Shown piece by piece: positions 4,430 through 13,629 of a stretch of 20,485 nucleotides of DNA. Under the pieces are notes generated by a model, which saw only the letters and a program-made list of their open reading frames with translations, ran no database searches and was not told the DNA's origin. This stretch comes from Candidatus Desantisbacteria bacterium CG1_02_49_89 (GTDB lineage Bacteria; Desantisbacteria; UBA1551): positions 1 to 20,485 of the forward strand of contig MNUP01000060.1 of the NCBI GenBank assembly GCA_001871075.1, written 5' to 3'. How positions within the stretch are numbered: the stretch's first letter is position 1; every line of letters starts with the position of its first letter. Made by a program: the position numbers and the translations under genes.

Positions 4430-4638
4430 AAAACGCACATAGCAAATGGCATATGGCACATAGCGTATCGCAAAGCATTTGATTAAAGGCTTAATAGATT
4501 AACGGTTTCTCGGATTTAAACAGTTTATACAGTTTACAGAGTCTATAAAGTTTACAAAGTAAAAAATTCGTGGGAATTAGTGTTAATTCGTGGTTAAAAA
4601 GATTTTTTGTGGATTCCGTGGTTGCAAAAGGAGAGTGT
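4430..4638. repeat. Gap made of three word-repeat families
   Basis: No gene is supported here. From 4436 to 4471 the words CACATAGC and GGCATATGGC repeat. From about 4516 to 4560 GTTTACA/GTTTATA words repeat, the same family as at 9156-9253. From 4568 to about 4625 TTCGTGG words repeat, the reverse strand of the CACGAA words seen at 13513-13548. An AAAAGGAGAG ribosome site then precedes ATG 4639. An open frame can be extended upstream to GTG 4570, but that extension is only repeat sequence. Confidence 0.7.
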
Positions 4639-6120
4639 ATGGCAAAGATAAAGCTGGGCAGGAGCGAATACAGGGACAAGGTTTACGCGTGCTGGATGGG
4701 AAAGAACATCGGCGGCACGCTTGGAGCGCCATTTGAATGCAGGAAATGGGTGAACTGCCTGGAGTATTACCACAAAACGCCTGACGAGGCGGCTGCGAAC
4801 GATGACCTGGACCTGCAGCTTGTGTGGCTTAAAATGCTGGAAGACAAAGGCGTGGATCCGGCGCTGTCGGATTTCGCGGATTACTGGAAGAAATGCGCGT
4901 CCCCCTACCCGTGGAACGAATACGGGTTCTGCAACAGGAACCTTGCCCGCGGTTTAAGGCCGCCTGTTTCAGGGTGTTTTGAAAACCACTACATAGACGA
5001 AATGGGTTCCCCCATACGCAGCGAGATATGGGCGTGCGCCGCGCCCGGAGACCCGCAGCTTGCGGCTTCGTTCGCGTGGAAGGATTCTTCGGTTGACCAC
5101 GCCGGCGGGGAAGGAACTTATGGCGAGATGTTCTGGGCCGCGGTTGAAAGCGCCACGTTCGTGATAAATGACCCCAAAACCCTTATTCATATCGGCCTGC
5201 AGATGATACCGATCCACTGCCGCATTTCAAGGGTGATAAGGGAGGCGGTATGGTGCCATGAGAACGGGATTTCCTGGGCAGAGGCAAGGCAGAGGATCCT
5301 GGAAGCTTTCGGCAGGGACTATAACCCCTGCAATGCCGTGCAGAACCACGGGTTCACTATACTGGGCTGGCTTTACGGGAAGGATTTCGGGGATAAGCTG
5401 TGCATCGCTGTGAACTGCGCGTATGACACGGACTGCACCGGGGCGACGCTGGGCTCGGTGCTGGGGATACTGGACGGCGTAAAAGGGATCCCTGAAAAAT
5501 GGACAAAGCCCATTGGCGAGAAAATAGTGCTGCACAAGTTCACGCAGGTCCCGGGAGCCCCCAAGACCATAAGCGAACTGACAGAAAGGACGGTAAAGAT
5601 CGCGGAAAAATTCCTAAAAGCAAGATCAGAGGCCGCCGAATTCTCTCCGGGGAAGACCGTGAAACCGAAAGACCCGGTTTCCGTTCTATGCTCTAACGAA
5701 ATGGCAACCCAGGCTCTTATGCAGGACCCGATGTCCGCTGTGGAAAGAAGGGACGGCATTGACATATGGTTCCATTACGGCGGAGAACCGGTTGTAAGGC
5801 CGGGGATCTCGAAGAACGTGGGCATGCATCTTGAAAAGGACGGAAAGCCGGTCGACGGCAGCATTTCTATCATAGTTCCGAGGAACTGGACCGTGAACAG
5901 GGCTTCTGACAATTTCGGGCAGAAAAGGTTCGCGCTCTTCGCTGACAAAGCCTCAGACCGCAACGAGATGAGAGTAAAGGTGAACACGGGCTCAAAGAAG
6001 ATAGAAGCGTCGTTCATGATGCTGGGACCCGGCGAGGCAAAAGGATATCCCGTGAACGCGCAGGCAGGAAACTGCCCGAAGTGCGGGGGGTGGCCCGGCT
6101 CATGTTTGTGCGCTAAATAA
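4639..6120 (+). CDS. ADP-ribosylglycohydrolase family protein, paralog A
   Basis: A 493-residue protein whose first roughly 340 residues are an ADP-ribosylglycohydrolase (DraG/ARH, PF03747) domain. The binuclear metal-site motifs are visible: NDDLDLQ at 54-60, DHAGGEG at 153-159 and DTDCTGATLGS at 263-273. CWMGKNIGGTLGAPFE at 18-33 is the usual N-terminal helix. The family removes ADP-ribose or cleaves related N- or O-glycosidic bonds. Members found beside carbohydrate genes have unknown substrates, so activity on a sugar or nucleoside is possible. Residues from about 365 form an extra beta-rich domain. The last 15 residues contain CPKC and CLC, a possible zinc knuckle missing from paralog B. 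I placed the start at ATG 4639 because it has a clear AAAGGAG site and aligns with paralog B. There is no signal peptide. Confidence 0.88.
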   Translation: MAKIKLGRSEYRDKVYACWMGKNIGGTLGAPFECRKWVNCLEYYHKTPDEAAANDDLDLQLVWLKMLEDKGVDPALSDFADYWKKCASPYPWNEYGFCNRNLARGLRPPVSGCFENHYIDEMGSPIRSEIWACAAPGDPQLAASFAWKDSSVDHAGGEGTYGEMFWAAVESATFVINDPKTLIHIGLQMIPIHCRISRVIREAVWCHENGISWAEARQRILEAFGRDYNPCNAVQNHGFTILGWLYGKDFGDKLCIAVNCAYDTDCTGATLGSVLGILDGVKGIPEKWTKPIGEKIVLHKFTQVPGAPKTISELTERTVKIAEKFLKARSEAAEFSPGKTVKPKDPVSVLCSNEMATQALMQDPMSAVERRDGIDIWFHYGGEPVVRPGISKNVGMHLEKDGKPVDGSISIIVPRNWTVNRASDNFGQKRFALFADKASDRNEMRVKVNTGSKKIEASFMMLGPGEAKGYPVNAQAGNCPKCGGWPGSCLCAK

Positions 6121-6291: not shown

Positions 6292-7761
6292 GTGGACAGA
6301 ATCCGGTTGAGCAAAAATGAATATATGGATAAGGTGCTGGCGTGCTGGCTTGGGAAGAACATAGGCGGGACGCTTGGCACGCCAGTGGAGGGCATAAAAT
6401 ATACCCATGCCTTTACCTATTACGACTGGGACGTAACGCGCAGGTGGAAAAAGGACCCGTCCTGGACGCCGGGCGAGCCGCTTCAGAACGATGACCTGGA
6501 TTTCCAGCTCGTATGGGTGAAAATGCTCGAAGACAGGGGCATCCACGTAAAGTTCAGGGATTTTGCGGATTACTGGCTCAAACACCTTCATAAGCACTGG
6601 TACGCGGAATACAGTTTCTGCATCTACAATCTTCAAAGGGGTTTAATGCCCCCGGTTTCAGGCGCGTTCCAGAACTACTGGGTTGATGAAATGGGTTCCC
6701 CTATCAGGAGCGAGATATGGGCGTGCGTTGCTCCGGCTGATCCCCAGCTTGCAGCGTCCCTCGCATGGATGGATTCCTCCCTTGACCATACAGGCGGGGA
6801 AGGAAGGTGGGGGGAAATGTTCTGGGCAGCGGCTGAAAGCGCCGCTTTTGTGACCAAGGACCCAATGACCCTTATAAAGATCGGGCTTTCCATGATACCG
6901 ATCTCCTGCAGTATCGCGAGGAGCGTTAGAGAGGCGGTCTGGTGTTTTGAGAACAAGCTGGACTGGGGAGAGGCAAGAGAAAGGATCGCCACTATTTTCG
7001 GGCATGTCCAGCCGTGTAACGCGATCCCCAACCACGGGTTTGCCGTCATAGGCCTTCTCTACGGAAAAGATTACGGGGACATACTGTGCAAGGCGGTGAA
7101 CTGCGGTTTTGACACGGACTGCACAGGCGCGACCTTAGGTTCGCTCCTGGGGATTATGGGCGGGACTGCCGGCATACCCGAGGAGTGGAAAAAACCTGTC
7201 GGTTACGCTATAACCCCGTGCGCCCAGACAATTATGGACGGGCTTCCCAAAACAATCACTGAGCTTACTGAGCGCACAGCGAAGATAGCGGAAAAGCTCC
7301 TGAAGGAAAGATCAGGCACTTCGGAATTCGGGGAAAAGGCCGTTTTGCCGGAAAACATCCTGTCGCTTTTATTCAGGAATGAAAAAATAGGAAAGCTGCT
7401 TACGTTTGACAACAACTGCGCGGTGGAAAACATCGAAGACGCGGAGATTGCGCTGCATTACAACGGTGAGCCGGTGCTTTATCCGGGTATAGAAAAGACA
7501 CTGGATGTTTCCGTAAGAAAAGGCGGTTCAGCCGTTATGCCGGAAATAGAGATAAAGGCGCCTGCTGGATGGAGCGTCTCAAAGCCCGAAAAGGTGCAGG
7601 GCCTGGGCAGGTTCAGCGTTTCCGCGAAAACAGTCGAGAACAAGAACGCGCTGGAAATCACGGTCAAGGCTGAAGGCAAAACAGCGAAAGCAAGTTTTAC
7701 GCTGCTGGGACCAGGCGCGGTTAAGTTGCTGCCCGCGGCGCAGTCAGCCCCGCAGTCCTGA
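6292..7761 (+). CDS. ADP-ribosylglycohydrolase family protein, paralog B
   Basis: A 489-residue tandem paralog of the preceding gene, similar over its whole length. It keeps the same metal-site motifs: NDDLDFQ at 66-72, LDHTGGEG at 164-171 and DTDCTGATLGS at 274-284. It also has the N-terminal CWLGKNIGGTLGTPVE and the same beta-rich C-terminal extension. It differs in an insertion of about 12 residues near 47-62 and in lacking the Cys-rich tail of paralog A. Translation starts at GTG 6292 behind a strong AAGGAG site. The pair probably arose by local duplication; retention of both suggests two related substrates or a complex. Function beyond the family is unknown. Confidence 0.88.
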   Translation: MDRIRLSKNEYMDKVLACWLGKNIGGTLGTPVEGIKYTHAFTYYDWDVTRRWKKDPSWTPGEPLQNDDLDFQLVWVKMLEDRGIHVKFRDFADYWLKHLHKHWYAEYSFCIYNLQRGLMPPVSGAFQNYWVDEMGSPIRSEIWACVAPADPQLAASLAWMDSSLDHTGGEGRWGEMFWAAAESAAFVTKDPMTLIKIGLSMIPISCSIARSVREAVWCFENKLDWGEARERIATIFGHVQPCNAIPNHGFAVIGLLYGKDYGDILCKAVNCGFDTDCTGATLGSLLGIMGGTAGIPEEWKKPVGYAITPCAQTIMDGLPKTITELTERTAKIAEKLLKERSGTSEFGEKAVLPENILSLLFRNEKIGKLLTFDNNCAVENIEDAEIALHYNGEPVLYPGIEKTLDVSVRKGGSAVMPEIEIKAPAGWSVSKPEKVQGLGRFSVSAKTVENKNALEITVKAEGKTAKASFTLLGPGAVKLLPAAQSAPQS

Positions 7762-7869: not shown

Positions 7870-7945
7870 ATGTAACTCAGGGCTTCTCGAAGACCCGCCG
7901 ATCCTTAAGGTGGGAGCCCTGATAAAAATTTCCATGAAAGCACTC

Positions 7946-7995
7946 CGCCCGTCTTTCAGCGGGCGAGACTTCGCCCACCTGAAAGGATGGGCGAG
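7946..7995. repeat. Two-hairpin composite repeat, copy 1
   Basis: A first stem pairs CGCCCG (7946-7951) with CGGGCG (7960-7965). A short AGACT linker follows, then a second stem pairing TCGCCCA (7971-7977) with TGGGCGA (7988-7994). A second unit with the same two-stem plan and different loops lies at 13451-13497. Confidence 0.65.
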
Positions 7996-8104
7996 GAAAG
8001 CACGAAAGACCGCTTTTAACCACGGATTAACACGGATTTACACAGATTAATCTTCTACTTGACTCTTGACACTTGATACTTGACACTGAATTTAAGGGGG
8101 CGAA

Positions 8105-9151
8105 ATGAAAATACTGTCTGGGATGGACGGGCTGCCGGCCCTGCGGGATTACAGGTCTTTCCGCGTCTCAAGCTATGACCGCACCGGCGCGAACGCGGAT
8201 TTCGTCCTGATAAAGCCCGGTGAGAAAAAGACGACGGCGGAAATAAAGGGCGCCGGAAGCGTCAGGCACATATGGTTCGGCGGCGCGGCGCAAGAAGAAG
8301 GATGGGTCAGGAAAACGATACTGCGCGTATTCTGGGACGGGGAAAAGGATCCCAGCGTGGAATGCCCTTTCGGGGATTTCTTCGGAGTGGGCCACGGGAT
8401 GTCAGGCAATTACTGGTCCCTGCCCCTCAGCATGAGGGTGGCGGACTGGCAGAACGGCCCGGCAATGAACTGCTAGTTCCCGATGCCTTTCGCTGAATCC
8501 GCGAGGTTTGAGGTTGAGAACGGGTCAGGCGCGGATTTTAATCACTATTTCTATATTGATTTTCAAAAATACAAGAAACTGCCGGCTGGGCTTGGAAGGT
8601 TCCACGCGCAATGGAAAAGGGAAAACCCCTGCAAGGCGGTGCCTTTCAAGGAAGGCGAACCCAGGACAAACCTTACAGGTAAAGAGAATTACGTTATACT
8701 TGACGCCGAGGGAAAAGGCCATTACGTGGGGTGCAACGTGAGCGTGCACCAGCTCGCTCCCGGATGGTACGGCGAGGGAGATGACATGATCTTCATTGAC
8801 GGGGAAAAATGACCCCCTTCTTTGCACGGCACAGGCACAGAGGATTATTTCTGTTCTTCTTACGAGTTCCCGGTGGACGGGTGGTCCACTCCCTATCACG
8901 GGGTTTCTCTTGCCGGAAGCCCGAAGCTTCGGGACTGGGATAACATGGAAGGCAAGACCAACAAGTGGACGGTTTACAAGTTCCACATAGAGGACCCCAT
9001 CCCCTTCAAGAAGTCAATAAAGGTGACCATTGAGCACGGCCATGCCAACGACCGCTCTGATGACTGGGCAAGCGTCGCGTACTGGTACCAGGCAGAGCCG
9101 CATAAGGTTTTTCCGCGGTTTCCGGGCGTGAACGAAAGAATGCCCCGCTAA
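8105..9151 (+). pseudogene. GH172/DUF2961 protein interrupted by two in-frame stops
   Basis: Read through, this is a 348-codon gene of the DUF2961 (PF11175, GH172) family, which includes enzymes acting on fructofuranosyl and D-arabinofuranosyl sugars. The family segments are all in one frame: YRSFRVSSYDRTG at 16-28, IWFGG at 56-60, FWDGE at 76-80, GDFFGVGHG at 90-98, FPMPF just after codon 124, HGTGTEDYF at 241-249 (with a conserved acidic residue, Glu246) and SVAYWYQAEPH near the end. Two codons break it. TAG at 8474-8476 (codon 124) lies where relatives read Tyr in NCYFPMPF. TGA at 8810-8812 (codon 236) lies where relatives read Trp in GEKWPPSLHGTG. There is no frameshift, and no ribosome site for restart after either stop. 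TAG and TGA end other genes here, so recoding is unlikely. A recent pseudogene or sequencing/strain variation fits best. Confidence 0.85.
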
Positions 9152-9917: not shown

Positions 9918-10046
9918 CCGTCGAGCGTCATAAGCCGTACGTCTTACGTAAATACCGTCATCCGTCGTAGGTCTTACGTTTTAAGGATTCATACGCAAGA
10001 CGCTCGACGTTCGACGTGAAACGTACGACGTTCGACGTACGACGTG
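9918..10046. repeat. ACGTCGTACG word repeat, copy A
   Basis: The gap is filled with CGTCGAGCGTC, TACGTCTTACG and GTTCGACGTACG words. Its first roughly 85 bases match 14376-14460 almost base for base, including the core TAAATACCGTCAT and AAGGATTCATACGCA. The right half is largely complementary to the left. It ends about 15 bases before the radical SAM start. Confidence 0.8.
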
Positions 10047-10061
10047 AAAAAGAGAGGAACT

Positions 10062-11405
10062 GTGAAAATACTTCTAATTGCGCCGGGTCAGGATGAGAAT
10101 TATGCGGGAAGGCTCGGATTTGCGTTCAAGTTCCCGCCGCTCGCGCTCGCGACTGTCGCGTCTCTTGTAAAGCCCGGTATCGAAGTCAGGATCCTGGACG
10201 AACACGTTGAGGCGATCAATTATGACGAAGGCGCGGACCTTGTGGGAATAAGCGCGATGACCGCGGTAGCGCCGAGGGCTTACAGGATCGCGGACAAATT
10301 CCGCGCAAGGGGCACCAAGGTTGTGCTGGGCGGCGTGCACCCGTCAGTGGTTCCTGAGGAAGCGATACAGCACGCGGATGCCCTGGTCATGGGAGAGGCA
10401 GAGGGATCCTTTCCCGGGCTGATAGAGGATTTTGAAAAAGGCAGGATGGAAAAGTTCTACTCCAATAAAGAAGTGCCTTCCCTTTCAGGGCTTCCGGAAC
10501 CCAGGCGCGACCTTTATAAAAAAAAGGCCTATTTCGTGAAGAACTCTTTCCAGACAACCAGGGGCTGCCCTTATGACTGCTCGTTCTGTTCCGTGTCAGG
10601 CGTGTTCGGCAGGCAGTACCGGTCAAAGCCCGTTGAGGACGTGATAAGGTCGGTTGGATCGTCCAAAAGCGGTTTTGTCGGTTTTATTGACGACAACATC
10701 GCCGGTAACAAGAGGTACAGCAAGGACCTTTTCAGGGCGCTTGCCCCGCTTAAGGTCAGGTGGGCCGGCCAGTCTTCGGTTAACGCCGCGGAAGACGAAG
10801 AGCTGCTGGTGCTTCTTAAAAAAAGCGGGTGCGTGGGGCTTTTTATGGGTTTTGAGACTATTTCGCAGGGCAGCATGGGAGAGATAGGCAAGCACCAGAA
10901 CAAGATAGAGGAGTTCAAAACGAACGTTAAAAAAATGCACGACCACGGGATCGTGGTCCTGGGCGCGTTCGTGTTCGGTTTTGACAGCGACGATAAGGAC
11001 GTTTTCAAAAGGACCCTGGATTTTGTCTTTGATTCAAAGCTGGACCTGGCTCAGTTCAGCATACTGACGCCGCTGCCCGGAACAGCAGTGTTCAAGAAAC
11101 TGTCCTCCGAGAACCGCATAATAGACACAGACTGGTCCAAATACGACATGACAAGGACCGTGTTCAAGCCGGCGCTTATGACCGCTGACGAACTGCAGAA
11201 AGGCAGTATGTGGGCGTGGAGGGAGTTCTATTCCGCGGGTCCCATACTGAAAAGAATGACAAGGATGGATTTCCATTTCATATCAAGCATCCCGTACTGG
11301 ATCGTGCTGGCAATAATGAATTTCGGTTTCAAGGGAACCCTTGCCTTTAATGACGCCCTGAACAGGAAGTTCATAAAGGAAGGCAACGAAAGAGCGATCA
11401 GGTGA
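10062..11405 (+). CDS. B12-binding domain radical SAM protein, paralog 1
   Basis: A 447-residue protein with an N-terminal cobalamin-binding-like Rossmann domain (about 3-130, with DEHVEAI at 46-52, VGISAMT at 61-67 and VVLGGVHPSVVPEEA at 87-101). A radical SAM barrel follows, with the cluster motif CPYDCSFC (Cys169, Cys173, Cys176) after TTRG. Later segments GFDSDD and LTPLPGT are typical of this class, which includes BchE and HpnJ-type enzymes carrying out cobalamin-dependent methylations or rearrangements at unactivated carbons. The substrate is unknown. I prefer GTG 10062 to the upstream GTG 10044 because AGAGGA precedes it and the product then has exactly the length and N-terminus of paralog 2. 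Its last four bases overlap the LysE-type gene, implying translational coupling. Confidence 0.87.
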   Translation: MKILLIAPGQDENYAGRLGFAFKFPPLALATVASLVKPGIEVRILDEHVEAINYDEGADLVGISAMTAVAPRAYRIADKFRARGTKVVLGGVHPSVVPEEAIQHADALVMGEAEGSFPGLIEDFEKGRMEKFYSNKEVPSLSGLPEPRRDLYKKKAYFVKNSFQTTRGCPYDCSFCSVSGVFGRQYRSKPVEDVIRSVGSSKSGFVGFIDDNIAGNKRYSKDLFRALAPLKVRWAGQSSVNAAEDEELLVLLKKSGCVGLFMGFETISQGSMGEIGKHQNKIEEFKTNVKKMHDHGIVVLGAFVFGFDSDDKDVFKRTLDFVFDSKLDLAQFSILTPLPGTAVFKKLSSENRIIDTDWSKYDMTRTVFKPALMTADELQKGSMWAWREFYSAGPILKRMTRMDFHFISSIPYWIVLAIMNFGFKGTLAFNDALNRKFIKEGNERAIR

Positions 11406-12049
11406 ACGGATTTATTTCTATCCTCGGTTTATTCGGGATGGGATTAGGCATAGGGCTGAGCGGGGCGCTGATCCCGGGCCCGCTCCTCGTATTCAACATA
11501 ACGGAAACGCTCAAGCACGGCGCGAAGACAGGATTTCTGGTCATACTGGGCCATTTCTTCGTGGAGGTATGCGTATCGCTTCTTATAATCTTCGGATTTT
11601 TAAAGTTCCTGCGATCGCCTGTTGTCGCGGGGGCCGTAGGGCTGGCAGGCGGGATCCTGCTTTTCCTGACCGGTATTTCTCTTTTAAGGCAGAAAGGGCT
11701 TAATGCCTTCGGGCCCGCGTCCGAAAAAAGCTACGGCCCGGTCCTGGGCGGGGTGATATTTACGGTTTTCAATCCTTCCTTCCCGCCGTGGTGGGCAGCA
11801 ATCGGTTACAACATGCTGTGGCAGGGCATGCAGGCTGCGGGCGTAACAGGGCTTATCGCGATACTGGTTGGGCACTGGTGCTCTGATTTCGGATGGTACG
11901 CGCTTGTTTCTTTCACGGTTTCAAGGGGGAAGGATGTTATCCTGCGCGAAAAGGTATACCCCCTGCTTAAGACAGTGCTTGCGCTTTTTATGTTTTTCCT
12001 TGCAATCTATTTTATAATAAAAGCAGTCAACTGCTTTACTCCGCTGTAG
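11402..12049 (+). CDS. LysE/RhtB-family amino acid or metabolite exporter
   Basis: A 215-residue membrane protein with about six helices and the LysE family signature near the N-terminus: GLSGALIPGPLLVFNITETL, with PGP at 25-27. The family exports amino acids and related small molecules across the inner membrane. The GTG start at 11402 overlaps the stop of paralog 1 in a GTGA configuration, and there is no separate ribosome site, so translation is probably coupled. It is enclosed by two radical SAM paralogs in the same direction, which suggests it exports or detoxifies something those enzymes make or use. Substrate specificity cannot be inferred. Confidence 0.85.
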   Translation: MNGFISILGLFGMGLGIGLSGALIPGPLLVFNITETLKHGAKTGFLVILGHFFVEVCVSLLIIFGFLKFLRSPVVAGAVGLAGGILLFLTGISLLRQKGLNAFGPASEKSYGPVLGGVIFTVFNPSFPPWWAAIGYNMLWQGMQAAGVTGLIAILVGHWCSDFGWYALVSFTVSRGKDVILREKVYPLLKTVLALFMFFLAIYFIIKAVNCFTPL

Positions 12050-12104: not shown

Positions 12105-13448
12105 ATGAGGATCTTGTTGATATCACCGGGCAAAGACGAGGATTACGCAAAGAGGATGGGGCTTGCTTTCAAGCTTCCGCCTCTGGGGATAACCACAGTT
12201 GCGGGTCTGACAAAACCCGGCATAGACATAAGGCTTCTGGATGAGCAGGTGGAGGCAATAGATTTCAATGACGGGGCTGATATCGTGGGTATCAGCATGA
12301 TGACCGCTGCCGCGCCCAGGGTTTACAGGCTTGCGGAGGAATTCCGCAGGCGCGGGGCAAAAGTAGTGCTGGGAGGGCCGCATGCCTCGGCGGTCCCGGA
12401 AGAGGCGGCGCAGCACTGCGACGCGGTGGTTGTCGGTGAGGCCGAGGGTTCATGGCCCAGGCTTATAGAGGATTTTGAAAAAGGAAAGCTTGAAAAAATT
12501 TATGCCAACGCGGAAAAACCCAGCCTTGCCGGGCTTCCTGAGCCCAGGCGCGACCTTTACAAAAAAAAGGCGTATTTAATTAAAAATACCTTTCAGACAA
12601 CAAGGGGCTGCCCTTACGCGTGTTCGTTTTGCTCTGTTTCCGGGGTATTCGGGGAACAGTACCGCTCAAAACCCGTGGAGGACGTAGTAAGGTCGATCGA
12701 AATAACGAAGGCCAGGTTCGCCGGCTTTATTGACGATAACATCTGCGGGAATAAAAAATACAGCAAGGAATTGTTCAAAGCCCTTATACCGCTGCATGTA
12801 GGATGGATCGGCCAGGCTTCTGTCAACGCCGCCGAGGACCTGGAGCTGCTTCAGCTTGCGAAAAAAAGCGGGTGCGTCGGTCTTTTTATGGGGTTTGAGA
12901 CCCTTTCGCAGGGCAGCATGGGAGAGATCGGCAAGTCCCAGAACAAGATCGCGGCTTTCAAGGACAACATCAAGCGGCTTCACGATCACGGCATAATAGT
13001 GCTGGGCGCTTTCGTTTTCGGGTTTGACAGCGACGACGTGGACGTGTTCAAGCGCACGGTGGATTTTATTTATGACGCAAAGCTTGACCTCGCGCAGTTC
13101 ACAAACCTTACACCCCTGCCCGGGACCCAGCTTCACAAGAAGCTTGCGGCAGAAAACCGCATCATAGACACCGACTGGAGGCATTATGACACGGAAAGCG
13201 TGGTTTTCAAGCCCGCGCAGATGACCCCTGACCAGCTCTGGAACGGGACCGGATGGGCGTGGAATAATTTCTATTCCCGCGGCAACATCTTAAGAAGAAT
13301 GATGGGAATGAAATTTGACATAATACGCCTCGGGATGTATGTCGTTCCTCTTTTAATAATGAACTTTGGGTTCAAGAAAGCCCTTGATTTTGATAACGTT
13401 GTCAAGAATACGTTTTTCAAGGACCCCGGCATCCGCAACAAAGATTAG
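12105..13448 (+). CDS. B12-binding domain radical SAM protein, paralog 2
   Basis: A 447-residue paralog of the protein at 10062, the same length and closely similar along its whole sequence (for example YRSKPVEDV, CVGLFMGFET and LTPLPGT are shared). It has the same cobalamin-binding N-terminal domain and the cluster motif CPYACSFC at about 169-176. The start ATG 12105 has AGGAGG at 12095-12100; another ATG at 12101 is out of frame. It follows the exporter after 55 bases and completes what looks like a three-gene operon. The strong similarity suggests duplication followed by modest specialisation; two successive modifications or a heteromeric enzyme are possible. Product and substrate are unknown. 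Confidence 0.87.
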   Translation: MRILLISPGKDEDYAKRMGLAFKLPPLGITTVAGLTKPGIDIRLLDEQVEAIDFNDGADIVGISMMTAAAPRVYRLAEEFRRRGAKVVLGGPHASAVPEEAAQHCDAVVVGEAEGSWPRLIEDFEKGKLEKIYANAEKPSLAGLPEPRRDLYKKKAYLIKNTFQTTRGCPYACSFCSVSGVFGEQYRSKPVEDVVRSIEITKARFAGFIDDNICGNKKYSKELFKALIPLHVGWIGQASVNAAEDLELLQLAKKSGCVGLFMGFETLSQGSMGEIGKSQNKIAAFKDNIKRLHDHGIIVLGAFVFGFDSDDVDVFKRTVDFIYDAKLDLAQFTNLTPLPGTQLHKKLAAENRIIDTDWRHYDTESVVFKPAQMTPDQLWNGTGWAWNNFYSRGNILRRMMGMKFDIIRLGMYVVPLLIMNFGFKKALDFDNVVKNTFFKDPGIRNKD

Positions 13449-13512: not shown

Positions 13513-13629
13513 CCACGAAATCACGAAAGTGTCACGAAAACACGAAATATGCTTTTATCTTGCTAATGACTCACGACAAATGCCTAAGGACTGTTTTTGT
13601 AACCACAGGTTAACACAGGTTAACACAGT
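13513..13629. repeat. CACGAAA and CACAGGTTAA word repeats
   Basis: From 13513 to 13548 CCACGAAA, TCACGAAA and ACACGAAA words repeat. From 13601 to 13629 AACCACAGGTTAACACAGG words repeat, a relative of the CACGGATTAACACGG tract at 8021-8050. The rest of the gap, 13449-13727, shows no gene. Confidence 0.65.

Follow-up and report, generated by a model that had tools for sequence, protein, structure and literature searches.

We examined the window, i.e., the whole stretch of 20,485 nucleotides of DNA belonging to a 2.48-Mb, 150-contig assembly (93.5% complete, 1.78% contamination), and focused on a gene of a sugar-cleaving enzyme, a glycoside hydrolase of family GH172, that is interrupted by two in-frame stop codons. 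This gene was probably inactivated very recently by nonsense mutation, which would make it a young pseudogene or loss-of-function allele; its stops rest on one assembled consensus. Two point substitutions would each have created a stop, leaving the ribosome-binding site, the reading frame, and the catalytic motifs intact. Translation would then end after 123 residues, ahead of both catalytic glutamates, so that no active enzyme would be formed. The proposed loss of function is deduced from where the catalytic residues lie relative to the stops and from the normal termination machinery of the genome.

The GH172 frame and its catalytic residues

Translation of positions 8105-9151 on the forward strand resulted in 348 codons followed by TAA, the sole internal stops being TAG at codon 124 (8474-8476) and TGA at codon 236 (8810-8812). 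The uninterrupted open reading frame of a GH172 enzyme is therefore not found here. Direct reading of the frame revealed no indel and no frameshift between 8105 and 9151, so that the original prediction of a 348-codon frame with these two stops and without frameshift holds. A ribosome-binding site (AAGGGGG) is located a few bases 5' of the ATG start, both being intact on the forward strand (8089-8107), and a coding-potential scan showed that coding potential persists on either side of each stop.

The frame read through both stops matched the Pfam family DUF2961 (PF11175, GH172) with 282.7 bits and covered positions 2-235 of the 235-position profile. Its AlphaFold2 model, calculated from an alignment of 32 sequences, reached a pLDDT of 85.3 and a pTM of 0.88. 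In a Foldseek search this model retrieved the solved GH172 enzymes 7v1v, 4kq7, 8ah3, and 8ic8, with a TMq of 0.89 to 7v1v_B as well as to 4kq7_A. Family match and fold are far beyond chance, confirming the gene as a full-length GH172 gene as originally proposed, and the read-through frame is predicted to adopt the double jelly-roll fold of GH172.

In alphaFFase1, Glu270 acts as acid/base and Glu291 as nucleophile (PMC8605356). Matched by motif, E224 and E246 of the window protein appear as their respective counterparts; both are invariant in the alignment and encoded in the DNA 3' of codon 124. According to the alignment and these published residue roles, the putative acid/base Glu (codon 224) is part of a WYGE motif between the two stops (8765-8776, forward strand), while the putative nucleophile (codon 246) lies in a GTGTEDYF motif 3' of both (8828-8851, forward strand). 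Since the TAG precedes both catalytic glutamates and the TGA falls between them, we infer that the terminated product cannot be active.

Stop columns and the age of the lesion

The residues at the two stop columns were evaluated in 108-109 aligned relatives, which are 40-56% identical to the window protein. Not one of these carries a stop at column 124 or 236, i.e., the gene has in-frame stops where its relatives have sense codons, as is typical of a young pseudogene. One relative flagged with a stop (L015/L020) has it where the match reaches its C-terminus, and the stop was taken as the normal end. At column 124, the 109 relatives have mostly Phe (45), Tyr (34), or Trp (22), and Phe is also found in L026 and L030, the closest neighbours in a maximum-likelihood tree in which this placement is only moderately supported. 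Column 236 is occupied by Trp in 66 out of 108 relatives (~61%), the others having Glu, Leu, Phe, Lys, and more. As judged from the alignment, column 124 thus holds an aromatic residue rather than specifically Tyr, and column 236 prefers Trp without being invariant. The earlier description of both as conserved Tyr and Trp was overstated. The location of stops at positions of this type is in itself unremarkable, because Tyr and Trp codons account for 58 of the 134 single-base changes by which this gene can acquire a stop. One other genome of the same phylum was examined and the GH172 gene was missing from it.

In order to estimate the age of the lesion, we defined 50 near-invariant columns, conserved at a level of at least 95% in 100 relatives. 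The window protein keeps 49 of them, the exception being K292 in place of R. In a leave-one-out comparison, most relatives showed zero or one departure and approximately 4 in 10 departed at one or more columns. As the window protein stays within this range, constraint would have ended only recently. The retained catalytic motifs and 49 out of 50 near-invariant residues likewise suggest a very recent loss.

A neutral simulation led to two stops after approximately 20-60 substitutions in the GH172 gene, most likely at about 30-60 and plausibly at 20. With an assumed indel to substitution ratio of 1:10 to 1:20, a gene with 20 substitutions remained free of indels with a probability of 0.14-0.37, and one with 30 substitutions with a probability of 0.05-0.22. 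The original prediction had built on the premise that indels usually accompany decay. This premise is consequently weak at such an age, since two stops arise after approximately 20-40 neutral substitutions, when a gene is still rather likely to be indel-free. Two nonsense changes, near-complete conservation, and no indel represent the young end of what is expected from decay.

Genome context

Two further GH172 genes, both intact, are found on contigs C46 and C130. Being 42-47% identical to the window protein, they are old paralogues and not recent duplicates, and their presence may have relaxed the selection on the window copy.

Genes interrupted by in-frame stops were also counted by a coding-potential scan of a 408-kb sample (~0.41 Mb, window included). 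Besides the GH172 gene, two genes turned out to carry a clean in-frame stop, TAA in both cases. In an SBBP-repeat protein gene close to a contig end (L157 at approximately base 169, minus strand, C47), the TAA occupies a position that is Tyr in the sister repeats, and a gene of a secreted barrel-like protein (L170 at approximately base 13595, minus strand, C74) is interrupted after ~85 residues. Inspected by eye, the remaining candidates looked like tandem-gene junctions. Clean nonsense lesions are hence not unique to the GH172 gene, as these two genes carry them as well. Their occurrence at low frequency agrees with pseudogenes still being formed in this genome, and just as well with a consensus that includes rare strain variants.

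Within the window, two tandem genes of the ADP-ribosylglycohydrolase family (4570-6120 and 6292-7761), ~55% mutually identical, immediately precede the GH172 gene; a neighbour of this family was seen in just one (L043) of the GH172 relatives that were fetched. The gap between 7761 and 8105 hosts an ~85-bp palindromic intergenic repeat (7924-8010, TTTCCATGAAAGCACTCCGCCC ... GGGCGAGGAAAGCACGAAA) as well as pieces of other dispersed repeats. This palindromic repeat has >30 further copies in the genome with 82-99% identity, folds strongly (z -4.4), is not contained in Rfam, and resembles REP or MITE-type elements. On the other side of the GH172 gene, two very similar B12-binding radical SAM genes (10044-11405 and 12105-13448) enclose a LysE-type transporter gene.

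Alternative explanations and comparison with known systems

TGA and TAG are the codons serving Sec and Pyl, and each is found here at a position able to hold an aromatic residue. Nevertheless, a genome-wide reassignment of the stop codons, or their decoding as Sec or Pyl, has a practically negligible chance of being correct. Genes of the window end in TAG at 12049 and 13448 and in TGA at 7761 and 14369, as had been pointed out originally, and out of 240 long frames in the sample 54 end in TAG and 57 in TGA. All other 12 Trp codons of the GH172 frame are TGG. RF1 and RF2 are both intact in the genome, and the RF2 gene (L148, approximately base 887) has a classic programmed +1 frameshift site (GGGGAGGTATCTTTGAG), consisting of a Shine-Dalgarno-like GGGGAGG followed by TAT CTT TGA, showing this mechanism in a little-known phylum. 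The autoregulatory frameshift of RF2 depends on TGA acting as a stop. A third gene with a release-factor domain (L149), flagged with a TGA, is an ArfB-like gene and the TGA its normal end. The suggested search for suppressor tRNAs yielded no stop-reading anticodon among the 44 distinct tRNAs of the 93.5% complete assembly. The anticodon stem of tRNA-Trp(CCA) has 5 bp, in contrast to the 4-bp stem of the UGA-reading form (PMC13092985). PylS was not found in the genome, and matches of the tRNA-Sec model coincide with the places of ordinary tRNAs. Internal stops are absent from 45 radical-SAM and ABC transporter domain matches (~6,300 codons) and from four ADP-ribosylglycohydrolase genes. With neither a suppressor tRNA nor release-factor loss nor widespread in-frame stops in this assembly, a changed genetic code is contradicted by independent genome evidence; the original argument against it is reinforced by the release factors, the RF2 frameshift, the tRNA set, and the clean gene families.

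Leaky or regulated readthrough, by which little full-length enzyme is made and the downstream sequence stays selected, would agree with the survival of conserved residues and catalytic motifs on either side of both stops. A published survey argues that many bacterial in-frame stops are read through, and also finds most of these stops to be transient, at the level of population polymorphism (PMC7918605). However, this persistence is explained equally well by youth, none of the relatives examined, at 40-56% identity, shares either stop, two different stops would need reading in series, and the tRNA complement described above offers neither a suppressor nor a 4-bp-stem tRNA-Trp. Moreover, the RNA 3' of the stops folds no better than shuffled sequences (z 0.79 and 0.10), i.e., a stimulatory structure as in programmed readthrough was not detected. 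Readthrough of the GH172 stops, one of the options originally offered, is thus possible but unsupported, and we regard it as improbable. In a more elaborate version, near-cognate tRNAs of this uncultured phylum would read both stops inefficiently, the pair acting as an expression throttle that keeps the enzyme at a very low level; this appears quite improbable. Separate translation of gene fragments that then assemble could make use of the start-like codons after each stop (ATG at 8483 and TTG at 8822), but no ribosome-binding site was seen by eye before either, all aligned relatives lack such a split, and the pieces would cut through the double jelly-roll fold with one break between the two catalytic glutamates; a split gene is accordingly very hard to credit. 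A consensus artefact, caused by sequencing or assembly error or by a mixed-strain consensus while the resident population has an intact gene, is unlikely and still carries appreciable weight, as the 150-contig assembly with its 1.78% contamination looks metagenome-derived and every other feature of the gene is intact. Against it, the above-mentioned ~6,300 codons, the four ADP-ribosylglycohydrolase genes, and the two GH172 paralogues are all stop-free, which argues for a low general error rate; two independent errors, both nonsense, in a single gene would be a coincidence, and the assembly contains no second copy of the gene. A sister sequence was absent from viral contigs (36-base exact pattern), and plasmids gave weak matches only.

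Among the options that had been put forward, recent inactivation is therefore the best supported, in light of the conserved motifs, the paralogues, and the standard termination. The gene mainly illustrates the appearance of a young pseudogene, its frame still full-length and motif-complete but broken by two clean stops, and genome annotation should mark it as interrupted. It would gain in importance only if purifying selection were seen to act in sister genomes that retain both stops; double readthrough could then be tested.

The GH172/DUF2961 enzymes used for comparison include alphaFFase1 of Bifidobacterium dentium (7v1v), BACUNI_00161 (4kq7), and an exo-alpha-D-arabinofuranosidase (8ic8). 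The read-through frame has in common with the known enzymes the full-length domain, the predicted double jelly-roll, and the WYGEG and GTGTED motifs. Unlike them, the window gene has two in-frame stops that would cut the product before both catalytic glutamates. With the proposed read-through genes (PMC7918605) it shares a frame intact beyond the stops, and it differs from them by the lack of orthologous stops in the relatives examined and by two different stops in series. Its closest resemblance, in terms of clean stops, a conserved remainder, and intact paralogues, is to bacterial pseudogenes that arose recently through nonsense mutation, or to nonsense alleles that still segregate, of which this gene would be an ordinary example; nothing notable sets it apart from them, two stops without an indel placing it at their young end.
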